DNA from: Phytoactinopolyspora alkaliphila
GTDB taxonomy: Bacteria > Actinomycetota > Actinomycetes > Jiangellales > Jiangellaceae
Direction of reading: 5' to 3'
Assembly (NCBI RefSeq): GCF_010550695.1
Contig: NZ_JAAGOB010000003.1
Location: forward strand, 62,001-126,000
DNA length: 64,000 nt
Shown: positions 11,864 to 50,257 of the stretch, one piece after another
How the letters are laid out: each line of letters begins with the position of its first letter
Numbering within the stretch: the stretch's first letter is position 1
Translations under genes and position numbers: made by a program
Notes under the pieces: generated by a model
Told to the model about the DNA's origin: nothing
What the model saw: only the letters and a program-made list of their open reading frames with translations
The model's database searches: none

Positions 11864-11939
11864 GTTGACTTCCATGCCGTGAATCGCGCGAAGGCGGCCG
11901 GATAGGCACCAAAACGCGATTCACGGCGGTGAAGTCAAC
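11864..11939. repeat. Long imperfect inverted repeat (25-bp arms, 26-nt loop)
   Basis: The left arm 11864-11888 starts GTTGACTTC and continues GCCGTGAATCGCG. The right arm 11915-11939 mirrors both blocks (CGCGATTCACGGC and GAAGTCAAC), with only a 3-nt unmatched block between them. It lies between the convergent 113-residue gene and the lipoprotein gene. It could act as a bidirectional terminator or be a member of a dispersed palindrome family. Confidence 0.8.
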
Positions 11940-15994: not shown

Positions 15995-16078
15995 GGTGTC
16001 GAGAAAACTTAGCATCGCGGCACATATCTGCCTAGAGGCCGAACGGCCGGGCAGCGGATGGTCCACACGGCCGTTCTC

Positions 16079-16154
16079 AACCCCTGGCATGGGTTGAGGT
16101 CGCTGGAAACGGACATTTCGGGCCGATTAGCGACCTCAACCCATGCCAGGGGTT
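16079..16154. repeat. Perfect 26-bp inverted repeat; copy 1 of a dispersed element
   Basis: Arms 16079-16104 and 16129-16154 are exact reverse complements, beginning AACCCCTGGCATGGGTT, with a 24-nt loop. The loop read on the minus strand (GCCCGAAATGTCCGTTTC) matches the loop of the repeat at 33254-33340 at 16 of 18 positions, and the arms share CCCCTGGCATGGGTT. Homology through the loop shows common descent rather than two unrelated terminators. Confidence 0.9.
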
Positions 16155-16165
16155 GTGGTAGGGGG

Positions 16166-31722: not shown

Positions 31723-31808
31723 AACGCTGGACGATTCCTTCAGCGGTGGAAGCTTGTGTGGCCCCTGGCCGATGAACTCTTCCACCGCTGAAGGAATCGT
31801 CCAGCGTT
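31723..31808. repeat. Perfect 30-bp inverted repeat (26-nt loop)
   Basis: Arms 31723-31752 and 31779-31808 are exact reverse complements, the left beginning AACGCTGGACGATTCCTTC. The loop spans 31753-31778. It is the longest perfect stem in the window and lies between divergent genes, where a terminator is not expected. Confidence 0.92.
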
Positions 31809-33253: not shown

Positions 33254-33340
33254 GTCCCAGCCCCTGGCATGGGTTACGCATCGTAAATGCGCCCGAATTG
33301 TCCGATTCGAACGACCACAACCCATGCCAGGGGCTGGGAC
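33254..33340. repeat. Perfect 22-bp inverted repeat; copy 2 of the dispersed element
   Basis: Arms 33254-33275 and 33319-33340 are exact reverse complements (left arm GTCCCAGCCCCTGGCATGGG then TT) with a 43-nt loop. It shares CCCCTGGCATGGGTT in its arms and GCCCGAATTGTCCGATTC (33291-33308) in its loop with the repeat at 16079-16154. It sits between the convergent epimerase and GDPD genes. Confidence 0.9.
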
Positions 33341-47666: not shown

Positions 47667-47833
47667 GTGTCACCTGATCGTCGTTTGTGCACCTGATCAT
47701 TTCCCCGGAGATGATCAGGTGCACAAACTGCATTCGGGCCGGCTGTCGTGCCACCTGATCATGTCCACAATGCGGACGCGAGATGATCAGGTGACACAAC
47801 GAGGCCGCGGAGCGTCGCATTGTCATCTGATCG
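47667..47833. repeat. Cluster of alternating CACCTGATCAT words and inverted repeats
   Basis: One perfect 18-bp inverted repeat (47683-47700 with 47711-47728, loop 10 nt; left arm GTTTGTGCACCTGATCAT) is followed by an 11-bp one (47752-47762 with 47783-47793). Degenerate copies lie near 47669 and 47822. The word recurs about six times in about 160 bp, in both orientations, between the convergent sseC and dsrE genes. Confidence 0.85.
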
Positions 47834-50085: not shown

Positions 50086-50100
50086 TCGGCGCGCCCGCTG

Positions 50101-50205
50101 TCCTGACGCCGATCTGTCGTCCTGACGCCGCCTAGTCGCGCAAAGGGCCCAGACGGCACGGGAGGCACGGCTTCTGGGCGTCAGGATGACAGATCGGCGT
50201 CAGGA
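50101..50205. repeat. 29-bp inverted repeat with internal word duplication
   Basis: Arms 50101-50129 and 50177-50205 pair at 28 of 29 positions, and each arm contains the word TCCTGACGCC (or its complement) twice. The loop is 47 nt. It lies between the convergent ygfZ and dtd genes. Confidence 0.9.
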
Positions 50206-50257
50206 CGATGTCTGAGAAGGGCCGCAGAGGTCTGGGCGCGCGCCGGACGTCATTCAG

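Follow-up and report, generated by a model that had tools for sequence, protein, structure and literature searches.

A dispersed REPIN-like hairpin family in Phytoactinopolyspora alkaliphila and AbiEi/DUF559 nuclease genes flanked by matched hairpins

Hairpin elements in the window

The window, that is, the whole stretch of 64,000 nucleotides of Phytoactinopolyspora alkaliphila DNA analysed here, carries two copies of a palindromic element, the parts of which are listed in Table 1. A previous inspection of the letters alone (the sequence-only reading) had regarded the two as copies of a single element, and both do match one covariance model, R1, with the scores given in the table. It had also taken the arms of copy 1 as a perfect 26-bp inverted repeat and had pointed out a loop piece common to both copies; the repeat is perfect, but its arms measure 27 nt, and the loop piece is real, but the copies lie in opposite orientations. 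The loop of copy 2 amounts to 43 nt when its diverged inner arms are included. With three mismatches at most, CCCCTGGCATGGGTT occurs eight times in the window, six of these within the two elements, where 1.98 occurrences are expected, and none of 100 shuffles reached eight. When folded as single-stranded DNA, copy 1 gave -39.7 kcal/mol (z -13.1) and copy 2 -36.0 kcal/mol (z -10.6). A search of the window against Rfam at the gathering score met no known structured RNA (0 matches).

Table 1. Parts of the two element copies in the window
Feature	Position	Strand	Description
Element copy 1	16078..16155	+	REPIN-like hairpin, 27-nt arms, 24-nt loop; 81.4 bits against model R1
Copy 1 left arm	16078..16104	.	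27 nt; CAACCCCTGGCATGGGTTGAGGTCGCT
Copy 1 loop	16105..16128	+	24 nt; contains the family motif CGGACATTTCGGGC
Copy 1 right arm	16129..16155	.	Perfect inverted repeat of the copy 1 left arm
Element copy 2	33254..33340	-	Family of copy 1, reverse orientation; 65.1 bits against model R1 on the minus strand
Copy 2 left arm	33254..33275	.	Perfect, 22 nt; GTCCCAGCCCCTGGCATGGGTT
Copy 2 right arm	33319..33340	.	Perfect, 22 nt

Other hairpins were also seen in the window. At 31723-31808 there is a perfect 30-nt inverted repeat with a 26-nt loop, and a stretch of 86% identity to it lies at G000:C32:119137-119226, G000 being our handle for this genome. Long inverted repeats at 50100-50206 (GTCCTGACGCCGATC...) and 47681-47802 (CACCTGATCAT...) may belong to other hairpin families.

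Copies in the genome

The sequence-only reading had proposed a dispersed REP- or MITE-like family, homologous through the loop, a proposal to be refuted if the genome held no further copies. Within the 5,506,198 bases of the genome, a 15-mer of the arm was found 41 times exactly and 81 times with two mismatches at most, as against 7 times for a reversed control pattern, and model R1 has at least 45 distinct places among the matches listed, so that the proposal is supported. The input of R1 was an alignment (A1) of 37 copies from this genome and three from a sister species (G004). Of 50 candidate sites, 40 had been kept, ten being dropped as places where the element was absent or one element had been read twice, and 37 copies of equal length entered the column table. 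Mean pairwise identity among these 37 is highest in the outer arms (0.82 and 0.87) and lowest in the loop (0.61).

The copies are mainly extragenic and near gene 3' ends. As judged with a simple codon-bias gene caller, 23 of the 45 lie between tandem genes, 15 between convergent genes and one between divergent genes; four overlap a predicted gene and two are unclear. No target-site duplication was found in 26 canonical copies, where 4-nt repeats occur at 2 of the 26 (1.6 expected) and repeats of 5 nt or more do not occur. Complementarity specific to the individual copy reaches up to 12 bp beyond the 72-bp core: at positions 1-4, 0 of 2000 re-pairings were as high, at positions 5-12 the number was 8 of 2000, and there is nothing at positions 13-22 (1124 of 2000). 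The copies therefore sit in, or extend into, somewhat larger palindromes. Compensatory change is weak, paired cells amounting to 86.0% as against 85.0% in shuffles (43 of 500 reach this) and pairs changed on both sides numbering 4 as against 4.6 (479 of 500), and the covariation score of 0.125, as against 0.104 (15 of 500), leans toward structure. Evidence for selection on RNA structure is weak and mixed.

Searches of plasmids, phages and IMG/VR contigs gave no match to the element. A collection-wide pattern scan, which possibly omits the window's own genome, picked out 12 contigs (11 of Bacteroidota and one of Phycisphaerales); these were rejected as carrying a different hairpin that merely contains the motif, a similarity that we judged to be due to chance. 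Eleven contigs from two assemblies, Saprospiraceae SJ208 and Bacteroidota USDV_maxbin.037 (L086-L096), carry an unrelated hairpin that is likewise dispersed, measures about 78 bp or more and has long near-perfect arms and flanks TTAGTGG/CCACTAA.

Relatives in sister species and other genera

The exact CATGGGTT...AACCCATG form occupies 23 places in this genome and none in four sister species. Sister species and other genera of the family have related elements, the arms of which are species-specific and the loop recognisable. In G004 the elements have an identical inner arm and a related loop, but their outer arm is GGTGATCGTCAGTGSGTTGTGGTCGC, and additional direct units often lie inside; another sister species (G002) has GAGCATGCGTTGTGGTCGC. 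In a further genus, arms of the CCTTGGCA or GTTGATCTTGGAGT type surround a loop of the CGGACATWTCGGGC type. Across the 22 genomes of the taxonomic family, the best R1 match reaches E <= 1e-3 in 12 and E <= 1 in 16.

Clear vertical inheritance at each site had been named as another refutation, and empty sites in relatives as a check, and these were followed at the two window sites only. Site 1 is variably occupied: in two sister species there are three single units belonging to a different sub-family, a third carries the hairpin of its own sub-family, and a fourth has no element. This site is re-used while its sequence changes. At site 2, the orthologous gene end is without the element in three sister genomes, one of which, G004, has a hairpin of the GTTGATCATGG type at the opposite end of the gap. 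No clean empty site was obtained, site 1 being occupied by other sub-families in three relatives and site 2 being confounded by a difference of about 3 kb in all three sister genomes.

Nuclease genes between matched hairpins

The sequence-only reading had found no transposase or RAYT gene in the window and had suggested searching for a partner transposase. No RAYT gene (PF01797, E <= 0.001) was found in any of the 22 genomes of the taxonomic family, the present one included and two of them incomplete (75% and 81%); the same search was positive in 5 of 14 control genomes. The gene that is flanked instead encodes an AbiEi/DUF559 nuclease, which is the likely partner and was invisible to that reading.

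Matched hairpin pairs flank genes with AbiEi-like winged-helix and DUF559 domains at 26 of 67 loci, as against 3 of 720 control positions, a pair being counted as matched when a hairpin with a score of at least 11 lay near each gene end and the two shared at least 9 nt. The control positions were taken from 400 kb of arbitrary DNA of six of the same genomes, and because they overlap, the Fisher p of 3e-27 is only nominal. At a stricter score of 13 the counts were 23 of 67 and 1 of 720, and at a looser score of 10 they were 32 of 67 and 5 of 720. Hairpins required on one side only are less telling (52 of the 67 loci and 163 of the 720 controls at score 11), and 41 of the 67 nuclease loci have no matched pair at the main threshold. 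The 67 were counted from 76 loci after removal of eight duplicates and of L180, which gave no tblastn match; they comprise the best 30 of 43 matches, 30 of a longer list, the loci of the phylum search described below and hand-picked places. Gene starts were set by rule, three by hand. We regard the pairing of hairpins and AbiEi/DUF559 genes as a result established computationally and with controls.

Neither relatives of known structure nor an NCBIfam match could be credibly assigned to the nuclease. Its protein groups are designated A to D, labels of our own, and tblastn detected no D-type protein on plasmids. In the open-access literature (most subscription journals lay outside the scope), we found no paper tying DUF559 to REPs or REPs to Actinobacteria.

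Two places in the genome have two copies of the window family within about 1 kb with a gene segment between them. In one (L063, positions 1457-2454, G000:C32), a gene of the metallo-beta-lactamase fold is enclosed, possibly a case of gene capture, and both copies have the inner end CATGCGAAG. The other (L049) holds the remnant of an AbiEi_4/DUF559 gene of the D type: the C-terminal part matches DUF559 barely above the cut-off, an N-terminal part, which lies in a different frame, has a match to AbiEi_4 that stays below the cut-off, and of the D-type model no more than positions 187-316 were found. The present population of elements is therefore probably no longer spreading by means of that enzyme. 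Four single copies in the genome (L037, L039, L046 and L047) have one end that is GCGAAG-like, as at the inner ends of these composites, and no second copy lies beside them within the approximately 1.5 kb retrieved.

Hairpin type and nuclease clade

At 12 of 13 A-type loci, hairpins of the GATCATGG type occur on at least one side of the gene, and 68 of the 78 pairs of A-type loci have no detectable homologous outer flank, the other 10 sharing one. Genes of the D type were found at 13 loci in 12 of the 22 genomes (E < 1e-100); their hairpins are of the CTTGGCA-, TGGCACG- or TGGTGCG-type, and such a hairpin or an R1 match is near 12 of the 13 loci, the exception being in G021. Other hairpins accompany B- and C-type genes, though GATCATGG arms are also present at L162, which is of the C type.

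Among the 52 loci with hairpins, 74 of 149 pairs with similar proteins in different genomes share at least 10 nt of hairpin, as do both of the two pairs with similar proteins in the same genome; with dissimilar proteins, 21 of 1140 pairs in different genomes and 0 of 35 in the same genome do so. The Mantel r is 0.66, and none of 5000 permutations was as high. Hairpin type tracks nuclease clade rather than genome. Orthologous loci account for part of this sharing; 19 of 91 pairs of D-type loci have a common outer flank. At a D-type locus common to G001, G003 and G004, the hairpins differ among the species.

Intact nuclease genes in sister genomes are flanked by recognisable relatives of the window family. 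Elements related to R1 adjoin D-type genes in G010, G017 and G018 (30.7-36.6 bits), in G014 (22.6 bits) and, more weakly, in G019 (17.6 bits), and a C-type gene of G004 (L309) has R1 matches on both sides (28.8 and 18.9 bits). In the 400 kb of control DNA, R1 matches with E < 0.01 fell only in stretches of G004, where the family is dispersed. The window family is thus tied to two clades, not to one (D-type in five genomes and C-type in G004), and, together with the GATCATGG arms present at both A-type genes and the C-type L162, this indicates that the specificity is not strict.

In two locus pairs (L164/L175 and L169/L176), the module of hairpin, gene and hairpin appears inverted relative to common neighbours in two species. 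The window itself has a hairpin at 11864-11939 with 25-nt arms (88% complementary; arm GTTGACTTCAC) and a 26-nt loop; the arm matches a hairpin at an AbiEi/DUF559-like gene elsewhere in the genome (L305, G000:C12; 92.6% over 27 nt), so that a second family of this kind touches the window.

Occurrence beyond the family and the phylum

In the phylum, a D-type-like match with E <= 1e-30 was found in 6 of 296 genomes, at most seven candidates per genome being scored. Of the eight new loci inspected, three (L276, L278 and L280) are flanked on each side by matched hairpins, and a fourth, L279, by look-alike ones; the loop at L276, CCGGGCATATCGGGC, is close to that of the window element.

Single-domain DUF559 genes were also examined in plasmid and replicon records, and matched flanking hairpins were present at 9 of 16 loci (six alphaproteobacterial and three deinococcal), as against 1 of 100 annotated control genes. 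The 16 records were selected by us from 35 matches to a query sequence; the gene bounds of 7 of the 16, which were unannotated, were set by us, and one unannotated control stretch was excluded. The seven misses include two other azospirilla, Shinella, a Sinorhizobium, Methylobacterium, Neisseria gonorrhoeae and a cyanobacterium, and one-sided hairpins of score 8 occurred near 61 of the 100 control genes. At most of the nine positive loci the hairpins are short, rich in G+C and of the CCCTCTCCC or CCCCTCCC kind. One kind was described by an 18-base pattern, of which Azospirillum lipoferum has 31 copies in 648 kb, Sinorhizobium meliloti 25 in 3.7 Mb, Deinococcus aetherius two in 716 kb, both adjoining the DUF559 gene, and Sphingomonas parapaucimobilis two in 880 kb; reversed, the pattern has none. 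In Sphingomonas and Deinococcus, the DUF559 gene sits among suf, hpa or paa genes, as is expected of a mobile piece. In NC_016623.1, the record behind L314, many CCCTCTCCC hairpins are paired about 120-135 bp apart (e.g. 61833/61957 and 402203/402330), a doublet arrangement like that of REPINs.

Interpretation and alternatives

REP-type repeats are common in bacteria, and we know of no enzyme that spreads them outside the GTAG/RAYT group. The account that we think rather probable is that the present element is a non-autonomous REPIN-like repeat with the DUF559 nuclease as its partner; its mobilisation by the nuclease is an inference, without biochemical or transposition evidence. Its two inverted REP-like units, which surround a loop of about 24 nt, can pair into a hairpin or cruciform of about 26 bp. 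By inference, the AbiEi-like domain would bind the inverted units, the DUF559 (PD-(D/E)XK-like) domain would nick either the element's hairpin, in extruded or single-stranded form, or one at the target, and repair would copy the element into new extragenic places without target-site duplication. The absence of such duplications is easier to reconcile with repair or single-strand routes than with DDE transposition, and the presence of relatives on either side of a DUF559 nuclease gene suggests that the nuclease, not a usual transposase, is the spreader.

The main rival holds that the hairpins are mobile and the nuclease gene is their cargo, an unidentified recombinase moving hairpin-flanked segments in trans. 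The metallo-beta-lactamase-fold gene enclosed at L063, the mostly unrelated places of the A-type genes (no homologous outer flank in 68 of 78 pairs) and the modules inverted in two locus pairs would all suit a mere passenger, but a passenger does not readily explain why hairpin type tracks nuclease clade; moreover, no second class of gene turned up repeatedly between hairpins of this kind, although no systematic search was made, and RAYT is absent from the family genomes. We consider this rival unlikely without setting it aside. A more improbable explanation is that the copies are selected transcription terminators or mRNA 3'-end stabilisers that insulate the nuclease genes. Their location close to the 3' ends of genes, in most cases with tandem or convergent neighbours, and their strong folding are in keeping with it; dispersed copies within a genome, however, are alike in the sequence of arm and loop, a likeness that selection acting only on structure would not produce, the window has no Rfam match, and compensatory change is weak, though the covariation score leans for structure (15 of 500).

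Two transposase-based explanations have very little to recommend them. One is classical spread by a Y1 (RAYT) transposase that has since been lost, for which the architecture speaks, being the same as that of REPINs (PMC3116915); PF01797 is nevertheless missing from all 22 genomes (two of them 75% and 81% complete), yet 12 of these carry R1 elements (E <= 1e-3). The other, to which we give just as slight a chance, is a MITE of a DDE transposon mobilised through its terminal inverted repeats. A short gene-less inverted-repeat element is what it predicts, but target-site duplications are absent (4-nt repeats at 2 of 26 copies, with 1.6 expected, and none of 5 nt or more), and arm length and outer sequence differ among the copies.

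Extending the reading in which the nuclease is the partner, we put forward a tentative generalisation, for which we claim somewhat less than an even chance: DUF559 nucleases may form a second, RAYT-independent class of REP partners in at least three phyla (Actinomycetota, Pseudomonadota and Deinococcota), which would bind and nick clade-specific hairpins and spread them by repair, without a transposase, into extragenic DNA, and may be the missing enzyme of many enzyme-less REP families. The occurrence of a nuclease gene between clade-specific hairpins in three phyla makes the question of the REP enzyme directly testable. If true, the generalisation would provide DUF559, so far a domain without a known function, with a role and would add a transposase-free way of spreading short DNA.

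Comparison with known systems

MITEs and mobile insertion cassettes are non-autonomous inverted-repeat elements, some with passenger genes inside. The present element differs from a DDE-transposon MITE in that its 26 canonical copies lack target-site duplications, and no link to a DDE transposase has been shown. Vsr-like and EDxHD homing endonucleases are of the PD-(D/E)XK type and are possible motors of selfish DNA. We take DUF559 to belong to the PD-(D/E)XK-type nuclease group, and in Pfam the nuclease has a sub-threshold match to REase_MTES_1575; here, however, the nuclease would act on a hairpin that is dispersed, whereas those enzymes act on a single homing site or a mismatch. The N-terminal AbiEi-like winged-helix region (Pfam; PADLOC models, best E 1e-15) is a likeness to the AbiEi antitoxins of type IV toxin-antitoxin systems, from which the nuclease differs in being fused to a DUF559 domain and flanked by hairpins.

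The CGTC-tagged REPs (Di Nocera 2013, PMC3733652) are described as short palindromes in inverted pairs near gene 3' ends, for which a dedicated transposase is reported to be lacking. A unit of theirs consists of a stem of 8-9 bp and a loop of 4-5 nt, with a CGTC tag and a CCA tail; the present element, with much longer arms of 22-27 nt and loops of 24-43 nt, does not fit these stem and loop sizes. Among the hosts named there, Azospirillum lipoferum, Sinorhizobium meliloti and neisseriae overlap with our DUF559 plasmid matches.

The closest comparison is with REPINs, or REP doublets, and their RAYT transposases (Bertels and Rainey 2011, PMC3116915; REPtrons, PMC6006769). The present element, like a REPIN, has two inverted units around a spacer and is hairpin-forming, and it is dispersed in tens of mostly extragenic copies (4 of 45 overlap a predicted gene). 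As in those systems, an enzyme gene is flanked by its own type of repeat and the type of repeat tracks the clade of the enzyme; the flanked gene, however, is not Y1/RAYT but the AbiEi/DUF559 nuclease. The element thus looks like a REPIN/RAYT system in architecture and is not a member of it.
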